Source of the DNA: Bacteroidota bacterium
GTDB taxonomy: Bacteria; Bacteroidota; Rhodothermia; Rhodothermales; Rubricoccaceae
Assembly (NCBI GenBank): GCA_012960515.1
Contig: DUBD01000003.1
Coordinates: 1-33,209, forward strand
Direction: 5' to 3'
DNA: 33,209 bases
Shown here: piece by piece, positions 4,708-30,404 of the stretch
How positions within the stretch are numbered: position 1 is the stretch's first letter
How the letters are laid out: each line of letters starts with the position of its first letter
Program-made: the position numbers and the translations under genes
The notes under the pieces: generated by a model
What the model saw: the letters and a program-made list of their open reading frames with translations, nothing else
Database searches by the model: none
Told to the model about the DNA's origin: nothing

Positions 4708-5844
4708 CTAGGCGGCGTACGTGTTGAGCATCACCGGCATGATGAGCATCAGCACGTCTTCCCCCTCCAGCGGCTCCGCGGGCGAGACGACGCCGGCGCG
4801 GTTGGGCGAGGAGAACTCGAAGACCGCGTCCTCTGCGTCGAGGTTCTGGAGCACCTCCGTGAGGTAGTTGGCGTTGAAGCCGATCTCCATCTCGTCCGCG
4901 TCGTACTCGCAGAGCACGCGCTCCTTGGCCTCCGAGGCCCGCTCGATGTCTTCGGCGGAGATCTCGATGAGGTCCTTCTTGAGCGAAAGCCGCACCTGAT
5001 GCGTCATGCTGGAGGAGTACAGCGCGACGCGCTTGACGGCGTTGAGCAGTGCCTCGCGCTGGACCGTCAGTTGCTTCTCGTTCTCGACGGGGATGACGGC
5101 CTCGTAGTTGGGGTACTGCTCGTCGATCATGCGCCCGATGACCGTGGTCTCGCCGAGGTTGAACTCCACGTAGCCCCCGCCCACTCGGACGGTGCAGTCG
5201 CCGTCGCCGGCGGCTTTGCCCGCCAGCGCGAGGGCCTTCTCCGGCGCGATGAACTCCATCGCGGGCTCCGCGGTGATCGCGTCCATGGTGAGACGCACGA
5301 GCCGGTGGCCGTCCGTGGCGACGATACGCGCGTTCTCCGGGCGGACCTGGAAGAGCACGCCCATCATGGCGGGCCGGAGCGCGTCCTTGGAAACCGCGAA
5401 CCCGGTCTTGTCGATCGCGCGGCGGATCACGGCGGAGGGCGCCGTCACGGTCTGGGCGTCCTCCAGGCTCGGCAGCGCGGGGTAGTCCCCACCGTCGAAG
5501 CCGACCATCTTGTAGCGGCCCTGGTCCGTGGTCAGCTCCACGGTATGCTCCGTGTCCGTCTGGACCGTCACCGGCAGGCCGGAGGGCAGCGCGCGGACGG
5601 TGTCCAGCAGGCGCTTGGCCGGGACCGCGATCCGCTGCTTGGCGTCGGTCCCGTTGGTCTCGAACTGCACCGGCAGCGCCTGCACGATGGAGATGTCGAG
5701 GTCGGTCGCGGCGATGCGCAGGGTGTCCTCGTCGCGCTCGAAGAGGACGCACTCGAGGATGGGGAGCGTGGCCTTGGAGGGGACGGCGCCGCTGACCGTC
5801 GCGAGGGCGCGCTGGAGGTCCTGGCTGTTGACGGTGAACTTCAT
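4708..5844 (-). CDS. dnaN: DNA polymerase III beta sliding clamp
   Basis: MKFTVNSQDLQRALATVSGAVPSKATLPILECVLFE...; 378 aa; C-terminal LIMPVMLNTYAA; next to dnaA. Confidence 0.96.
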   Translation of the reverse strand: MKFTVNSQDLQRALATVSGAVPSKATLPILECVLFERDEDTLRIAATDLDISIVQALPVQFETNGTDAKQRIAVPAKRLLDTVRALPSGLPVTVQTDTEHTVELTTDQGRYKMVGFDGGDYPALPSLEDAQTVTAPSAVIRRAIDKTGFAVSKDALRPAMMGVLFQVRPENARIVATDGHRLVRLTMDAITAEPAMEFIAPEKALALAGKAAGDGDCTVRVGGGYVEFNLGETTVIGRMIDEQYPNYEAVIPVENEKQLTVQREALLNAVKRVALYSSSMTHQVRLSLKKDLIEISAEDIERASEAKERVLCEYDADEMEIGFNANYLTEVLQNLDAEDAVFEFSSPNRAGVVSPAEPLEGEDVLMLIMPVMLNTYAA

Positions 5845-5850
5845 AACCGG

Positions 5851-5963
5851 GGCGGACCGAGCGCCCGCTAGAGCTGTCGTTTCAGGAAAAGACGATGACG
5901 CAGTATCGGGAGAACCCGTTCCGCAATCAACCGCTGCGGGACGCTCTCCCGATGGCTTCACCG
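5851..5963 (-). repeat. 113-nt leader repeat, copy 1 (immediately upstream of dnaN)
   Basis: Aligns without length change to 6352-6464; most of the 14 mismatches fall in a hairpin; ends 6 nt from the dnaN ATG. Confidence 0.9.
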
Positions 5964-6027
5964 CCCCGCCCTCGCCCCGCTGGCGGAGGTCGTCAGCAGG
6001 CGGGGCAAGGCGAGCCAAGGGTGCGGA

Positions 6028-6345
6028 TTACAACGTTAGTATTGCCGTGATCGCACTGGCTGCGGAGGCGAGGGCGATCGCGAGAGCAACGAGCCTCCGC
6101 GTCACCTCACGCCCGCGCTGAATCTCCAGTGTCATCGCTCGTTGCTCTCGGCGCTCTTCAATTGTCTCCGCCAGCGGGACAACCGTGCTGTCGCCCACCA
6201 TCAACACGAGCGGTTGACGTGATCCCGGTTGACGATCAGGTGGTTGCAGGTCTGCCTTGAAGAGAGCCTGGCTATCAGTGTTTAGGGCTTCACTATGTGT
6301 CCTGGTTCTAGCGCCCAAAGCTTGGCGCAAGTAAAACAGCTTCAT
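6028..6345 (-). CDS. Small (105 aa) protein with C-terminal TM segment, inserted between dnaA and dnaN
   Basis: MKLFYLRQALGARTRTHSEALNTDSQ...RREVTRRLVALAIALASAASAITAILTL; AT-richer local composition than neighbours; preceded by leader repeat copy 2 at the same 6-nt spacing as dnaN. Confidence 0.55.
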   Translation of the reverse strand: MKLFYLRQALGARTRTHSEALNTDSQALFKADLQPPDRQPGSRQPLVLMVGDSTVVPLAETIEERREQRAMTLEIQRGREVTRRLVALAIALASAASAITAILTL

Positions 6346-6351
6346 GTTTGA

Positions 6352-6464
6352 GGCGGACCGAGCACCCGCTAGAGCTGTCGTTTCAGGAAAAGACGATGAC
6401 GCAGTATCGGCAGGACTCGTTTGGCAATCAACAGCCAAACGTTGCTCTCCCGATGGCTTCACCG
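6352..6464 (-). repeat. 113-nt leader repeat, copy 2 (upstream of small ORF, downstream of dnaA)
   Basis: Same length as copy 1; shared core GGCGGACCGAGC(G/A)CCCGCTAGAGCTGTCGTTTCAGGAAAAGACGATGACGCAGTATCGG and CTCTCCCGATGGCTTCACCG. Confidence 0.9.
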
Positions 6465-6465
6465 T

Positions 6466-6506
6466 CCGGCTGGCGGACCGTCCCGCCGAGGCCTCCCGCC
6501 AGCCGG
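6466..6506. repeat. GCTGGCGG inverted pair at the 3' end of dnaA
   Basis: CCGGCTGGCGG (6466-6476) / CCGCCAGCCGG (6496-6506), 11-bp stem. Confidence 0.8.
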
Positions 6507-8163: not shown

Positions 8164-8382
8164 TTATCCACAGCCCAACCGAACGCCGCGTGGGGTCAGG
8201 GGCCGGGGACTCCCGGGGACACTCGCGCTATCCACATCTTTTCCACGTTGTGGAAAAGGGGAGCTATCCCCTTGCGGTGCAACGCCGTCGGATCCAACAG
8301 AGAAACAAACAGGCGCGGTGGCACCCTCGAAGTGAAGCGCGCGCGGGGCGAGCGGTTCGGGAACGGGGTGGACTTTTCCACA
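8164..8382. promoter_or_regulatory. Candidate oriC / DnaA-box cluster upstream of dnaA
   Basis: TTATCCACA 8164-8172 (consensus), CTATCCACA 8228-8236, TTTTCCACG 8239-8247, TGTGGAAAA 8249-8257 (reverse TTTTCCACA), TTTTCCACA 8374-8382, in the non-coding gap between dnaA and the DUF177 gene. Confidence 0.7.
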
Positions 8383-14991: not shown

Positions 14992-15026
14992 GCTGGCGGA
15001 TGGCCTCGCCGAGACGGTCCGCCAGC
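14992..15026. repeat. GCTGGCGG inverted pair 3 nt after a stop codon
   Basis: GCTGGCGGA-tggcctcgccgagacgg-TCCGCCAGC. Confidence 0.85.
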
Positions 15027-17661: not shown

Positions 17662-17698
17662 CGCTGGCGGTGGCTCTCGCCGAGCCCGTCCGCCAGCG
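17662..17698. repeat. GCTGGCGG inverted pair after the ChaN-like gene
   Basis: CGCTGGCGG-tggctctcgccgagcccgt-CCGCCAGCG; loop shares CTCGCCGAG with 14992-15026. Confidence 0.85.
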
Positions 17699-23386: not shown

Positions 23387-23421
23387 GCTGGCGGTCGTGC
23401 TCGTCCGGGCCGACCGCCAGC
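23387..23421. terminator. GCTGGCGG inverted pair between convergent DJ-1/PfpI and sspD-like genes (bidirectional terminator candidate)
   Basis: GCTGGCGGTC-gtgctcgtccgggcc-GACCGCCAGC; 10-bp perfect stem filling the convergent gap. Confidence 0.75.
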
Positions 23422-23424
23422 CGG

Positions 23425-24318
23425 TTAGAGGTGGCAGATGCTGCAGCCGGCGTCCGGGTCCTCCAGATCGCGCGCCTCGTCCAGCAGCCCGCTCTCCGGG
23501 AAGAGCTGCGCGAGGAGCGTCGGCCCGACGCGGGTTTGCTCCAGCCGCGCGAGGCGGTCGGCGGTGCGCTGCTTGATCTGGGCCACGCGCTCCGGCTGCT
23601 TCAGGTCCACCAGGGGCTCGGCATCGCCCCAGGTGTAGCGCTCGCCCGTTTCGGGGTCCTCGCGCTCGTAGGCCATCGCGCGCTCGAACAGCTCCGGGTG
23701 GTTCTCCAGGAGCCCTACCCACTCGCTCCGGCGCTGGAAAAAGCAGAAGTAGCAGCCCGAGCGGCTCCGCCAGTCGTAGTAGGCCGGCCGGCCCATCCCG
23801 GAGTCCTCCAGAATGCGGTACACGTCCTCCTTCACGATGCCGTCCTCCTTGAACGGGAAGACGGTCTGGATGGTGGGCTTGGTGGAGATGTAGCCCACGC
23901 GGTCCGGCTCGTCCGCCCGGATGCCGACGTACGAGATCACCGGGTCATCGCCGACGTGGCGCTCGTACGGCTCCAGCTTGAGCTTCCGCGTGCACCACCG
24001 CATCTGCGGGCTCGGGAGGAAGCCGCGGTACAGCTTGAGGTAGTGGTCGAACGGCGTCTCGCCGGGCGGGGCGTCGGCGGCGAGGCGTTGGATAGGCGTC
24101 CCGAGGTACGTCTCCAGCCGGTTGAGGTAGTCGTAGGTCTCCTCCAGTTCGGTCCCGGTGTCGCAGAAGACGTACTCCGGCGCCTCCAGCGGGGCGCGCG
24201 GCGGCAGCCCCGTCTTGCCCAGCGCGCGCCGCCAGCGCTCGGGATCGTGGAGGTAGATCGCGAGGGCGGACGAGTCCTTCCCCCCGGAGAAGGCGACGAC
24301 GTGGCGGGGCTCAGGCAT
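23425..24318 (-). CDS. sspD: PAPS-reductase-family ATP pyrophosphatase, SspD/DndC-like
   Basis: PP-loop HVVAFSGGKDSSALAIYL; MRWCTRKLKLEPYE; SGCYFCFFQRR; C-terminal AGCSICHL; start overlaps the stop of the upstream ATPase. Confidence 0.8.
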   Translation of the reverse strand: MPEPRHVVAFSGGKDSSALAIYLHDPERWRRALGKTGLPPRAPLEAPEYVFCDTGTELEETYDYLNRLETYLGTPIQRLAADAPPGETPFDHYLKLYRGFLPSPQMRWCTRKLKLEPYERHVGDDPVISYVGIRADEPDRVGYISTKPTIQTVFPFKEDGIVKEDVYRILEDSGMGRPAYYDWRSRSGCYFCFFQRRSEWVGLLENHPELFERAMAYEREDPETGERYTWGDAEPLVDLKQPERVAQIKQRTADRLARLEQTRVGPTLLAQLFPESGLLDEARDLEDPDAGCSICHL

Positions 24319-27300
24319 CGGGCGAGGGGTCGGAGAGAGACGCGAGGATCTCGGCGAGGTCGCCGGAGCGGCCGGCGCGGCGTTCGAGGAGCGCGAGGGA
24401 GAGCTGGCCGAGCGCCGCGAGCTGCACGTCCACGTCGGCCTCACCGAGGGCGCCGAGCATGGAGGCCGCCAGCTGGCGGACCGTTTCAGCGTCTTCGGGG
24501 TGGACGTGGACGACGGCCTCGCGTTCCTCCTCGTGCGTGGCCGTCACGCCGAGGCGGAGCTTCTGCGCGTGCCGCGTGCGCTCCGTCGGCGCCTCCGCCG
24601 TGAAGGCGACAGCCTCACGGTGGGCGAACGTCCGCGCCACGTCGCCGAGGGCGGTCGCGAACCGGGCGCGGTCCTCATCGCCCCACTGGTTGGGCGGCCG
24701 CCGCGTGAGCAGCGCGCCGATGGACTCCAGCCACCCGCGGGCGTCCAGCAACTCGTCCCCGGCGCGGACGATGAACGCGCGGAGCGTGCCGTCCACGGCC
24801 TCCCCCGCGAGGGCACGCGCGCGCTCCCCGAGTTCGCTCCGCCTCTCCTCGCGCGAGGCCGAGCGCAGCCCGAACGCCTCCGCCAATTGGCGGTCGAGAT
24901 CCGTGAGGAGGTCGTCGTAGGTGCGGGAGAGCTCCGCGAGCGCATCGCCGAGAACCTGGACGTAAAGCGTCGCGCGGTCCTGCGCCGTCTCGGGCGCCTC
25001 GTCCTCGAACGGCTCCACGCCGCAGGCGAGCGGGAGCTCGCGGAAGAGCAGTGAGGCGGGCTCTTTCGCGCGGACGAGCGTTTCGCGGACCTGCGTGGCC
25101 TGATCGCTCATCGTGGTCGTTTTGCGGACGTACGGCGGCAGCGCGCTCACGCCGCCCAGCACGCGCGCGACGACCGGCAGCGGCTTGTGCCCGCCCGCCG
25201 GCTCCGCCAGCCCGACGCGCGCGCCGAGCGCCCGCAGCGCCACCTGCTGCGCCTCGGTCGCCTCCACCCACTGCACCGTGAAGTCCGCCGGGCCGCGAAG
25301 GAGCCGCTCCACGGCTTCGTAGGAGAGCCGCTGCTGGAACACGCCGTTCTCGAACACCGCCACGCGGTCGCCGTGCCGCACGAGTTGGGAAAACAGCAGG
25401 ATGGGCAGCAGCCCGTCGCGCACGCCGTAGGGCGGCTGGCGGAGCCGGTCGTAGAGCGCGGGGACGCCGACGGGCGCGGTGCGGGCCTCGCGGAGCGCCG
25501 CGTCCAGCGCGCCGATGGCAGCCTCGGTACCTGGCTCCGTCGGCGAGGCGAACCGCCAGCCAGCGGCGGTTTCGCGGTGGAGGCCCGTCCGTTGCAGGAC
25601 GGAGGCGTAGATACCGTATTCCGCAGGCGTCCCCTCGATGCCGAGGCGCGGCTCGTGGGGGTGCTCGGTCATCGCGCGGAGCAGGCCTTTCGTGGCGCGG
25701 ACGGCGCTGGAAGACGGCGCGTGCCGGTTGACCAGCTCGTTCCAGATGCGCGGCGCGTGCGGGAAGACGTCGTCGCAGACGGCGGAGAGGGCGGGCTGGA
25801 GCGCGTCCACCCGTTGCGGCTCCCCGGCGCGGAACCACGCAGCCCCTTCGGGCGCGAGGGCCTCCGCGACACGGGCGTCCACCTCCGCGCCCAGCGCGGC
25901 GTGCTGGGCGTCCACCTCCTGCCGCGCGACGCGGTCCCCGGCGAGCGAATCGGTGTGGGCGCGGACCCAGTCCAGGCACGCGAGGTCTCGCGCGAGATCG
26001 CGCAGGCCGCCGAGTCCGCGGACGAGCGCCACGAGCGTCCGCGCGTCCGACTGGCGGACGGCCTGGAAGAGCTCTGCTGTGGGCGCCTCGTCCGGGAGGA
26101 CGTAGACGACGCGGCCGTCTGTCTCTGGTGGCGCCGCGAGGAGGCGGGCGAGGTCCGTGCCATCCGAGTAGACCACCTCGAACACGCGCGAGGTGCCCGT
26201 CTCGAACGCGTGCCGTCGGGCGACGAGCGGCTGCGGCGGCCGCGACTGGCGGAGAAGCTCAGCAAGCGGGGTCCAGCCGGGGATGGCCTCGCGCGCTTCC
26301 GCCAGCGCGGCGGAGAGGTCGAAGTCGCTCCCTTCCCAGACGCGGTACTCGTCGTGGAACGGGCGGTAGGCCACGGCGCGGGCCTCGCGGAGCGCCCCCA
26401 GCGCCGCGCGGGTCTCGGCCTCGGGCGCGCCGGAGGTCGCGAGGAGCACGCGCTCGGACGGCGGGAGCCCCGCCAGCGCCCCCGCGAAGGAGAGCACGGC
26501 AACCTGTTTCAGCAACTGCTCCTGCATCTCGTCCCCGCCGATGCGCGAGAGCGCGGCCTCGGTCTCGGCCCAGAGCCTCGCGCCCGCGCCGCCCGCCAGC
26601 GCGACGCCGAGCGTGCCGGTGAGGTAGTCGTAGAGGTGGTCCGGGCGGTAGATCGCGCCCTCGGCGGAGACGGCGAGGAAGCTGCCGGGCTCGCCCGAGG
26701 CGAGGAAGGAGAACAGCGAGCGCTCTTTCTGCGCGAGGCGCCGGAACAGCGGCCCCACGAGCAACGCGACCGCCGGGTGCAGCGGCCACGCCTCCGCCAA
26801 GTGCGCGCGGACCTGCTCCGCGTCCATCCGCGCCGGGAGCGTCGCGGCCTCGACGGTCGCCTCCGCCAGCCGGGCGGGTTCATCGGCGGGCCGGGCGTCC
26901 GCGTCGATGGCGGCGGCGAGGAGGCGGAGCGTCTCCCCCACTGGCTCCACCCAGCCCACGTCCGCGTAGCGCCCCTGCACCTTGCGCCATTCGTCGCGAC
27001 GGGAGGACGAGAGGCCGGTCGCGTAGCGCTCGAACGCCTGATGCAGAACCGTGACGGCGAGAAGCGGCGGGGCACCGGGCGCGGCGGCGCGCTCCGCGAG
27101 AAGCTGGAGCACGTAGAGATCGCCCGCGTCGGGGTGGACGGCCGCGTATTCGAGGTGCTTGCCGAGTTCGTCCAGCACGAGAAACAGCCCGCCGCCCGTG
27201 CGCGCGTGGACGAGCGCGGCGGCCTCATCGTACGCCGCCATCACCTCGCCCTCGGTGTCCGACTGGCGGACGCGCTCGGCGAGGGCAAGGGCCGCGGCGG

Positions 27301-27736
27301 ACGTATCGGCTTTCCGGCCCTTCCCCTTCGGCACGTCGGCGGCGAACGCCTCCATCGCTCGGCCCAGACCGTCCGCAAGCGCGGAGAGCACGGGGCCGCG
27401 CGAGCCGACCACGAGGACGGGGCAGAACGCACCGCCCGAGGCCTCGCGCAGCCGGTCTGCCAGCGGGTCGTCCGCGGCGCTCAGGTGCGCGTGGGCGTCC
27501 GCGTCTCGGCGGAGCAGGCGCGAGGCGAACAGCGCGAAGGAGCTTTTGCCGCCGCCGTACGGCCCGGAAACGGACCACGCCCGGGAGGCGCCCGGCGTCT
27601 CCAGTGCGTCGGCGATCTGGCCCAGCGTCTCGCGCGCCTTCGCGGTGACGACGTAGCCCTCCAGCCCGCGCGCACTGTAGAAGTCGCGCACGAGGTGCAC
27701 GCTCCGCTGAAACTGGCCGTGGACGCGAACGGGCAT
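24311..27736 (-). CDS. sspC: Large P-loop ATPase, SspC-like
   Basis: 1141 aa; Walker A SGPYGGGKSSFALF, Walker B GGLFLVLDELGKHLEY; sandwiched between the DUF4007 and PAPS-reductase genes. Confidence 0.78.
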   Translation of the reverse strand: MPVRVHGQFQRSVHLVRDFYSARGLEGYVVTAKARETLGQIADALETPGASRAWSVSGPYGGGKSSFALFASRLLRRDADAHAHLSAADDPLADRLREASGGAFCPVLVVGSRGPVLSALADGLGRAMEAFAADVPKGKGRKADTSAAALALAERVRQSDTEGEVMAAYDEAAALVHARTGGGLFLVLDELGKHLEYAAVHPDAGDLYVLQLLAERAAAPGAPPLLAVTVLHQAFERYATGLSSSRRDEWRKVQGRYADVGWVEPVGETLRLLAAAIDADARPADEPARLAEATVEAATLPARMDAEQVRAHLAEAWPLHPAVALLVGPLFRRLAQKERSLFSFLASGEPGSFLAVSAEGAIYRPDHLYDYLTGTLGVALAGGAGARLWAETEAALSRIGGDEMQEQLLKQVAVLSFAGALAGLPPSERVLLATSGAPEAETRAALGALREARAVAYRPFHDEYRVWEGSDFDLSAALAEAREAIPGWTPLAELLRQSRPPQPLVARRHAFETGTSRVFEVVYSDGTDLARLLAAPPETDGRVVYVLPDEAPTAELFQAVRQSDARTLVALVRGLGGLRDLARDLACLDWVRAHTDSLAGDRVARQEVDAQHAALGAEVDARVAEALAPEGAAWFRAGEPQRVDALQPALSAVCDDVFPHAPRIWNELVNRHAPSSSAVRATKGLLRAMTEHPHEPRLGIEGTPAEYGIYASVLQRTGLHRETAAGWRFASPTEPGTEAAIGALDAALREARTAPVGVPALYDRLRQPPYGVRDGLLPILLFSQLVRHGDRVAVFENGVFQQRLSYEAVERLLRGPADFTVQWVEATEAQQVALRALGARVGLAEPAGGHKPLPVVARVLGGVSALPPYVRKTTTMSDQATQVRETLVRAKEPASLLFRELPLACGVEPFEDEAPETAQDRATLYVQVLGDALAELSRTYDDLLTDLDRQLAEAFGLRSASREERRSELGERARALAGEAVDGTLRAFIVRAGDELLDARGWLESIGALLTRRPPNQWGDEDRARFATALGDVARTFAHREAVAFTAEAPTERTRHAQKLRLGVTATHEEEREAVVHVHPEDAETVRQLAASMLGALGEADVDVQLAALGQLSLALLERRAGRSGDLAEILASLSDPSPDA

Positions 27737-27790
27737 GAGAGGCGCGAGGGGAAACGCGGGAGGATCGGGGCGGACAGTGCCGGGGGCGCG

Positions 27791-28681
27791 TCAGGCGGGG
27801 AGCGCGAGGCCCAGCTGGCGGTCGTGCTCGGCAGGCGGAACGGGCGCGTCGCGGTAGAGCTGCTGCACGCCCGCGGTGCTGTCGAACCGGAACGCGGCCT
27901 CCGGCTCCGCCTCGATGGCTTCGATCAGCTCGAACGCCTGGTCCTCGCCCAGCCCGAAGACGCGGCCGGGCGAGGCGGGCGCGCTGAGCACGTCCGAGAT
28001 GGCGAGCGTGCGGGAGGTCGGCGCCGTGCGGGCCCAGAAGTCCAGGACGGCGTCCGCGAAGACCTCGGGGGTGAGCCCGGTCCGCCGGCCCCGGCGCAGT
28101 ACGAGGGCGCCCGCCGAGCGCTCCACGAGCCCCAGCCCCGCGAGCGGCGAGAGCGCCGCGTCTTCGGCGTCTTGCCGGGTAAGGGGGGCATAGGTCCCGG
28201 CGAGGCAGGTCAGATCGCGCCGCAGGGTGGAGCGCTTGGGTTGGGCGTCGGCCGCGCCCTGCGCGTCCAGCCACTCGCCCAGACTGTGTGCCAGCCCGTC
28301 GAGGTCGGCGGTGTGGCCGCGGAAGTGGCCGAAGAGGAAGTGCCAGAGCGTGGCCCGGTCGGCCTCGCGGCAGAGCCGCCAGTGGAGCCGCCAGCTCGTC
28401 GCGAGGTGCTCGCAGTAGGGGTCCGCGCCGCCCTCGCCGAACGTCGCCAGCCCCCACGCCGTCGGGACGATCGCGCCGCGTGTTTCCCCTTCGCGGAGGG
28501 CGCCCGTCGCGAGGCCCCAGTGCCGCATCGCGCGGACCATGTTGCGGCCCACGCCGAAGGTGGCGATGGCCTCGCCGGAGCGGAAGACGGCCGGGTCCTC
28601 TGCCGCCGCTCGGACGGCCTTCGGCAGCCACAGAAAGCGGAGCGGGAACGTCTCGTGACCGGAGAACGAGAGCGTGGGCAT
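27791..28681 (-). CDS. sspB: DUF4007-family protein, SspB-like (candidate phosphorothioation nickase component)
   Basis: MPTLSFSGHETFPLRFLWLPKAVRAAA...IATFGVGRNMVRAMRHWGLATGAL, typical DUF4007 N-terminus; first gene of the cassette. Confidence 0.8.
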   Translation of the reverse strand: MPTLSFSGHETFPLRFLWLPKAVRAAAEDPAVFRSGEAIATFGVGRNMVRAMRHWGLATGALREGETRGAIVPTAWGLATFGEGGADPYCEHLATSWRLHWRLCREADRATLWHFLFGHFRGHTADLDGLAHSLGEWLDAQGAADAQPKRSTLRRDLTCLAGTYAPLTRQDAEDAALSPLAGLGLVERSAGALVLRRGRRTGLTPEVFADAVLDFWARTAPTSRTLAISDVLSAPASPGRVFGLGEDQAFELIEAIEAEPEAAFRFDSTAGVQQLYRDAPVPPAEHDRQLGLALPA

Positions 28682-28762
28682 CGGCAGGCTGGCGGCCGCG
28701 ACCAGCGGGGGTGGGAGGACGCCCAAAGGTACCGACGGCGCCCCCCGGCCTCTATGCAGAAT

Positions 28763-28832: not shown

Positions 28833-30404
28833 CTAGCGAATGCGCACGGCGTCCGCGATGACGACGTAGCCGCTCGTGGTCCAGCGCGAGAGCATCACGC
28901 GGTTCCAGCCCGCCGTGAAGGTGTACGTCCCGAGCGTGTTCCACTTGCCGCCGTTCGACTGCATGTTGACGGTCGTGGAGCCCACGCTGGAGCCACTCGC
29001 GTTGTACATGATGAAGGGGGCGGACGGCGCGCGGTTCGAACCGGCCACCCACCACGCATCGATGGTCTTCGTGCCGCCGGTCGGGAGGTAGAACCAGAAC
29101 GAGGCGCCATCGGAGACGGCCGCGGTCTGCGCCCACCAGTAGCCCGTCTGGTAGTCCGTGCTATGGCTGGAGGCCGTCCAGTTGGAGGACACGTCGATGT
29201 AGCCCTCGCTCGTGTTGTTGAGGTTGTTGTTGCTGTCCACGATGATCTCCGAGCCGCCGCCACTGGAGCCGCACTCCGTGTTGATGCGGTTGAGGTAGTC
29301 CGTCCACGGCCAGTTCGGGCCCGGGTCCGTGCGGTTGTACGGCTGGAGCGTCCCGTGCGCCACGAAGTGGTACTGGTCGCGCGGGATGTTGTGGTCCTGG
29401 CTGATGTCGCAAGAGAGCTCCGCCGAGGTCTGGATCATCCCCGTGTTGAAGGAGGACTGCGAGGCGTAGCCCGCGTGCTCGATCCCGATGGTGAAGTTGT
29501 TCGAGCTCTGGCCGTTCTTGCTGCACTGCGTGCTGCCGTTGAGCGAGCAGTCGTAGCTGGCGCCGATGTGCCACGCCTTCTTGTCCTCGCGGACGAGCTG
29601 CGAGATCTCGGAGCCGGTCTCGTTGACCACGTAGTGCGCGCTCACGCCCGCCTGGGAGTTGGTGAGCCAGCCCCAGCAGCCGGAGTACGAGCCCTCGCAG
29701 GTGTGGATGATGACCATGCTCGGCGAGGTCCCGGAGGGGCGGGAGCTGTAGTTCGGCGAGGACCGCCAGATGGCCGGGCCGTAGTCCGCGCTCCGCTGGT
29801 ACGTCGGGTCCTCAGCGATGGGCTCGATGGCGGTCGCGTGCGCGGCGATGGAGCCCAGCTGCGTGCCGTCCGGCCCTTCCACGACCACGCCCTCGCGGAG
29901 CGCGCCGTAGACGCCCTCGCGGACGTAGTGGTCGCGGGCGGCTTCCGCCTCGATCCCGCTATAGCGCGCGACGACGGGCGCCCAGGCGTCCAGGTCCGCG
30001 CGGTCGATGCCGGCCTCGTCTGCCCACTGGCGGAGAAGCGCGGCGGCGGCGAGCACGTTGGCTTCGGGGCGAGTACGGACGTCGGCTTCGGAGAGGCGCG
30101 CCAGCTGGGCGCCTTCGGTGAGGCGTTCCCCACGGAGCGCCATCAGGCCGTAGGCAGGGGCGACGCCCTCGAACTCCTCATGGCCTTCCACCATCTCCCA
30201 CCGGGTCTCGGTGTAAGCGATGGAAGCGAGAAGGTCCGCGGGCACGTCGTACTGCTCGGCGGCCCCTTCGAAGAGGTCGGCGGAGACGGGAGCGTTGCCG
30301 GGAGCCTCGGGGGCGGCGGAGCCCATCGGGTTCTCACCGCAGCCTGCGGCGAGGAACGCAACGACGAGCGTCGCGAGGGAAAGGCGGTACCAAGGGTAGG
30401 TCAT
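28833..30404 (-). CDS. Lipoprotein with lysozyme-like region, Amidase_2 (N-acetylmuramoyl-L-alanine amidase) domain and golvesin-like C-terminal domain
   Basis: Lipobox [19 protein letters not shown]...[17 protein letters not shown]...[10 protein letters not shown]...[19 protein letters not shown]-terminal [49 protein letters not shown]. Confidence 0.85.

Follow-up and report, generated by a model that had tools for sequence, protein, structure and literature searches.

A duplicated dnaN promoter region around an orphan open reading frame between dnaA and dnaN in a Rubrivirga-like bacterium

Why does a small open reading frame (ORF) separate dnaA from dnaN in this genome, and why does nearly the same stretch of DNA precede both the ORF and dnaN? 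The locus belongs to a Bacteroidota bacterium (Rubrivirga-like, Rubricoccaceae; GCA_012960515.1), whose assembly is a draft of 298 contigs and 92% completeness. The window, that is, the whole 33,209-nt stretch of contig DUBD01000003.1 that was analyzed, lies inside a 50-kb contig. It was compared with a genus-mate (G004), further genomes of the family Rubricoccaceae, and 114 genomes of the order. Read along the minus strand, the features are dnaA, a REP-like palindrome, the upstream unit (u1), the ORF, a G+C-rich hairpin, the dnaN-proximal unit (u2), and dnaN (Table 1).

Table 1. Features of the dnaA-dnaN region, in window coordinates
Feature	Coordinates	Strand	Remark
dnaN (beta sliding clamp)	4708..5844	-	88% identical to G004 dnaN
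u2, dnaN-proximal copy of promoter/5'UTR unit	5851..5963	-	appears to keep ancestral letters (G004 comparison)
dnaN -10 element GATACT (u2)	5902..5907	-	GATACY in most family members examined
u2 palindrome ATCGGGAGA...TCTCCCGAT around promoter	5905..5953	-	DNA fold z -3.3
dnaN -35 element TTGATT (u2)	5925..5930	-	kept in G004; TTGAYY in other family members
G+C-rich hairpin 3' of ORF, with degenerate REP-like palindrome	5965..6014	-	possible terminator (fold)
Orphan ORF, 105 aa, GC3 60%	6028..6345	-	possible tail-anchored membrane protein (composition, hydropathy)
u1, upstream copy of dnaN promoter/5'UTR unit before small ORF	6352..6464	-	probably derived; 99/113 identical to u2
u1 -10 element GATACT	6403..6408	-	place and spacing as in u2 and G004
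u1-specific palindrome CGTTTGGC-N8-GCCAAACG spanning -35	6418..6441	-	unique in genome at ≤2 mismatches
u1 -35 element TTGATT	6426..6431	-	place and 17-nt spacing as in u2 and G004
REP-like palindrome GCTGGCGG-N19-CCGCCAG, 3' end of dnaA, abutting u1	6469..6503	.	strong hairpin; 155 forward genome copies
dnaA	6528..8066	-	upstream neighbor; 80% identical to G004 dnaA, order same

The two units and the promoter that they contain

The units are each 113 nt long and align without gaps at 87.6% identity. Thirteen of the 14 mismatches, spread from unit position 22 to 54, lie inside one 38-nt palindromic stretch, and the remaining 75 nt hold a single difference, at position 101; clustering as tight was reached in 0 of 20,000 random placements. 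In an ungapped search, the repeat reaches 131 nt at 84% and is the longest close direct repeat of the window. Six nucleotides separate each unit from the same two codons (TCAAAC-ATGAAG after u1, CCGGTT-ATGAAG after u2). The initial annotation had described two 113-nt units, near-identical outside one hairpin, that each end 6 nt ahead of an ATG; on the reverse strand, its coordinates and lengths are exact, and both the near-identity and the placement were borne out. Its suggestion that a leader-plus-cargo unit is dispersed must be rejected, because a search with the 113-nt unit returned no further copies from this genome, and none from the 114 genomes of the order save the single promoter copy of G004. 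Among the close direct repeats elsewhere in 0.97 Mb of the genome, the part of the pairs that was inspected lay in coding sequence or carried the REP-like palindrome, which argues against promoter duplication around small ORFs being a recurrent feature here.

Both units contain TTGATT-N17-GATACT, with 57 nt from the end of the -10 element to the ATG. The two hexamers thus lie upstream of a gene and 17 nt apart, within the 16-18 nt of sigma-70-type promoters. In G004, TTGATTGCGGAACGGAAACCGCCGATACTG lies at the same distance (57 nt) before the dnaN ATG, and G004 also carries CCCGGTTATGAAG. A TTGAYY-N16/17-GCCGATACY-like element precedes dnaN in G005, G006, G001 (L067/L149), and a Rubrivirga metagenome-assembled genome (L066), GCC standing before the -10 element in the versions of the family members; the more distant G028 has a similar element in weaker form. 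Both position and sequence are therefore kept in relatives. The motif was not evident before dnaN in G002, G003, and G008. The strict promoter pattern occurs four times in 0.97 Mb of the genome (u1, u2, and two more sites), each time shortly before an ATG. A scan with the strict consensus, which is that of E. coli, did not flag TTGATT-17-GATACT.

Because this element sits at a like place before dnaN in relatives, and because its strict form precedes ATGs, we read the core of the unit as the dnaN promoter and the whole unit as a promoter and 5'UTR with an upstream palindromic part particular to this genome. The initial annotation's term, leader, is too narrow, since the unit appears to be mainly the dnaN promoter with the 57 nt downstream of it. 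A structured RNA leader was considered and rejected on three grounds: the unit has no Rfam match at E values up to 5, the palindrome is missing in G004, and there is no in-register covariation between the two copies in their inner arms.

The palindromes hold nearly all of the difference between the copies. When the 49-nt core was folded as single-stranded DNA, the z scores were -4.6 for u1, -3.3 for u2, and -0.4 for the equivalent stretch of G004. Each hairpin has 27 pairs, 16 of which are common and almost unchanged, and the loop of both holds the common GTTGATTGC. The inner arms are different sequences that pair in different registers, so that their differences do not amount to in-register covariation; a hairpin is real in both units, as previously noted, but it is not one and the same hairpin. 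Ordinary drift after duplication cannot have put 13 differences into the palindrome and a single one into the other 75 nt; template switching, replacement of a patch, and import of a different promoter allele are the candidate sources. Template switching at quasi-palindromes is a known source of substitution clusters that make or perfect hairpins in one event (PMC8794818, PMC7202029), and it might apply to the inner arms of u1 and u2. Unlike in the known cases, both inner arms of u1 differ from those of u2, and no nearby template was found for either; a single simple switch thus does not explain the cluster. Copying of the u1 hairpin arm from nearby sequence was likewise rejected, as the local template search was empty. 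Use of the u1 palindrome as an operator elsewhere was also rejected, because it occurs once in the genome (≤2 mismatches).

The empty site in the genus-mate and the orphan ORF

The genus-mate has the same gene order, fabD-fabH-plsX-yceD-dnaA-dnaN onward, with a dnaA-dnaN gap of 199 nt that contains one promoter copy and no ORF; the site is thus empty in a close relative with kept synteny. In the first 30 loci of the order that were examined, dnaA and dnaN are neighbors 29 times; their gap is widest in this genome (683 nt, followed by 343 and 334 nt). Since the site is empty in G004 and the gap here is the largest of the 30, the extra DNA was most simply gained in this lineage. That dnaA and dnaN are normally adjacent, as the initial annotation had it, holds for 28 of the 29 other loci, with gaps of at most 343 nt, but not for G006 and G008. 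In these two genomes (loci L017 and L148, respectively), the 1.5 kb upstream of dnaN yielded no dnaA; what looks like a methyltransferase gene, oppositely oriented, seems to occupy this stretch in G006.

Where u1 and u2 differ and can be aligned with G004, u2 agrees with G004 at positions 32, 42, 43, and 48, and u1 agrees with it at position 54. The CCGGTT before the ATG is also common to u2 and G004. This comparison suggests that u2 is the old dnaN promoter and that u1 is mostly the altered, derived copy. An origin of replication in the dnaA-dnaN gap was considered and rejected, as near-consensus DnaA boxes are absent there; three such boxes occur upstream of dnaA, at 8164-8382, which suggests that oriC lies there rather than between dnaA and dnaN.

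The ORF between the units has a GC content of 58% and a GC3 of 60%, compared with a GC3 of 94-96% in dnaA and dnaN. Its C terminus is hydrophobic (19-residue mean hydropathy up to 2.4 from residue 85), and a structure model made from the single sequence, with a mean pLDDT of 63, places a hydrophobic C-terminal helix after a charged stretch. The AT-richer 105-aa ORF with a C-terminal transmembrane segment that the initial annotation reported is thus recovered, the transmembrane helix being possible. Codon positions are coding-like (first-position T 9%, second-position G 19%). A frame that stays open for this long could arise by chance in DNA of such composition, with a probability of 3.7% in a fixed frame and 32% in any frame, so the ORF remains putatively coding. 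Segment 5964-6027, which holds the post-ORF hairpin, has a fold energy of -32.8 kcal/mol.

Searches of 117 genomes from the class, 396 from the phylum, viral, plasmid, and phage collections, and a collection of 84,980 genomes yielded no clear relatives of the ORF; the scans of genome contigs and of viruses detect close relatives only. Profile searches of Pfam, PHROGs, and NCBIfam gave no match, nor did a PDB structure search with the low-confidence model. With the exception of a marginal match in G419 (E 0.003, 36% over 78 residues), the ORF is therefore without homologs in the collections searched, and the comparison of synteny in relatives that had been proposed earlier gave a consistent result: G004 lacks the small ORF, and no clear homolog appears in the other genomes searched. 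A decayed dnaN or dnaA was rejected as its source, since the alignment with dnaN was no better than with shuffled sequences and that with dnaA was similarly low.

A local gain behind a copied promoter, and the alternatives

We consider it probable that the locus arose by one lineage-specific insertion at the dnaN promoter. A segment with the dnaN promoter, 5'UTR, and first codons (ATG AAG) would have been duplicated, leaving between its copies ∼0.4 kb of lower-G+C DNA with the 105-codon ORF and, at its end, the G+C-rich hairpin. The proximal copy u2 would go on driving dnaN, and the distal copy u1 would act as a dnaN-type, sigma-70-like promoter for the ORF. As u1 has the same 57-nt spacing from the -10 element to the start, the ORF would yield a short mRNA of its own at the same times as dnaN is expressed, and this message would probably terminate at the hairpin at 6014-5965. 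Transcription from u1 is thus predicted from the anatomy of the locus, and the ORF may be translated as a small tail-anchored membrane protein. The insertion would have come about by illegitimate recombination rather than through a transposase or integrase.

What this reading builds on can be seen in the DNA itself: the duplication, the empty site in the genus-mate, the conservation of the promoter, the orphan status, and the deviant composition. The initial annotation's proposal that a foreign gene was captured with duplication of the leader agrees with the single promoter copy and missing ORF of G004 and with the lack of a clear homolog; as to foreignness, composition is what suggests it, and no donor was found. 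Counting against an insertion that created a promoter-driven gene are the chance that the insert is open by accident, the mismatch cluster, and position 54, which favors u1 as ancestral.

The first of these points leads to a reading that we hold to be unlikely, though it deserves some weight, in which the duplication is real and the ORF is non-coding: chance-open inserted DNA, a spacer, or a decaying fragment with a promoter copy, and at most a proto-gene. The length of the frame, not rare for its composition, speaks for this, as do the absence of a homolog from all searched collections and the weak structure model; yet the ATG of the ORF is placed relative to its unit exactly as that of dnaN, the codon positions are coding-like, and a hydrophobic C-terminal helix follows a charged stretch. 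Misassembly at the dnaA-dnaN gap is unlikely. In particular, we regard it as improbable that the 298-contig draft misjoined versions of the dnaN promoter region from different strains. The assembly is fragmented and 92% complete, and two promoter alleles differing in a short patch could derive from two strains, but the contig spans 50 kb with dnaA-to-dnaN synteny intact on both sides, two alleles would not put a 0.4-kb ORF between themselves, and the longest exact runs common to the copies are just 21 and 46 nt.

It is similarly improbable that unit and ORF form a small mobile cassette, recognized by an integrase or through its hairpins, with u1 and u2 as copies of its attachment site. Direct repeats do flank the cargo, both hold strong palindromes with the common loop sequence, u1 adjoins a dispersed REP-like palindrome and u2 a degenerate form of it, and the genome has one Y1-type transposase gene. 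Against this, a second copy is absent from this genome and from the 114 genomes of the order, the 105-aa ORF stands alone between the units with neither recombinase nor transposase, the u1 palindrome has no second occurrence in the genome, the repeats correspond to a promoter already present in G004, there without the palindrome, and phage, plasmid, and viral collections gave no matches. Integron cassettes with their attC sites likewise have related imperfect palindromes flanking cargo; in contrast to those, there is no cassette array here, each unit has a promoter ahead of its ORF, and visual inspection of the unit ends revealed no attC core motifs (GTTRRRY / RYYYAAC). More improbable still is that promoter and ORF together represent a class of integrating cassettes, of which this would be a rare member present in single copy, that carry a mimic of the promoter and start codon of their target gene, the variable palindrome serving as recognition site; if so, insertion before an essential gene would be harmless.

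Given that the promoter was copied and that the orphan ORF between the copies occurs in no other searched genome, the locus seems to record not a novel type of mobile element but the recent gain of a gene, made locally and with a borrowed housekeeping promoter. The event, a lineage-specific ORFan insertion with promoter duplication, is of a known kind, and its layout is unusually informative. Like other bacterial ORFans and lineage-specific inserted genes, the ORF is short, deviates in composition, lacks relatives, and occupies a site where the genus-mate has no insert; unlike them, it came with a 113-nt duplication of its neighbor's promoter, 5'UTR, and start codons. Proto-genes in the E. coli long-term evolution experiment recruited promoters principally from transposable elements (PMC11101190). 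As in those, a sequence that was absent or silent gains (here putative) expression behind an existing promoter; the difference is that the promoter here is a duplicate of a housekeeping one, of which the donor gene keeps its own copy. On this reading, the locus is a clean natural example of an orphan ORF that gains, through duplication, the promoter of an essential housekeeping gene, which retains its own copy; the corresponding site in the genus-mate is empty. The birth or fixation of orphan genes would become testable at one locus, and expression of the new gene would be tied to that of the replication clamp; otherwise, this would be an ordinary local insertion.

REP-like palindromes and other features of the window

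The REP-like palindrome that abuts u1 also occurs at 14992-15026, 17663-17697, and 23387-23421, and genome-wide. It often holds CTCGSCGAG and, in the window, lies mostly at gene ends. Forward copies number 155 in this genome (1 for a control pattern), 0 in G004, and 21 in G008, and the spread looks like a lineage-specific burst. The Y1-type transposase gene (PF01797; G000:C191:73706-74014), single in the genome, is a candidate for its mover. Positions 23425-28726 hold SspB-SspC-SspD-like genes (DNA phosphorothioation defense), with PADLOC matches to SspD (9.5e-105), SspC (4.5e-295), and SspB (4.2e-76) and with DUF4007 and PAPS reductase domains. Positions 28833-30404 encode a protein with SLT transglycosylase, Amidase_2, and golvesin C-terminal domains.
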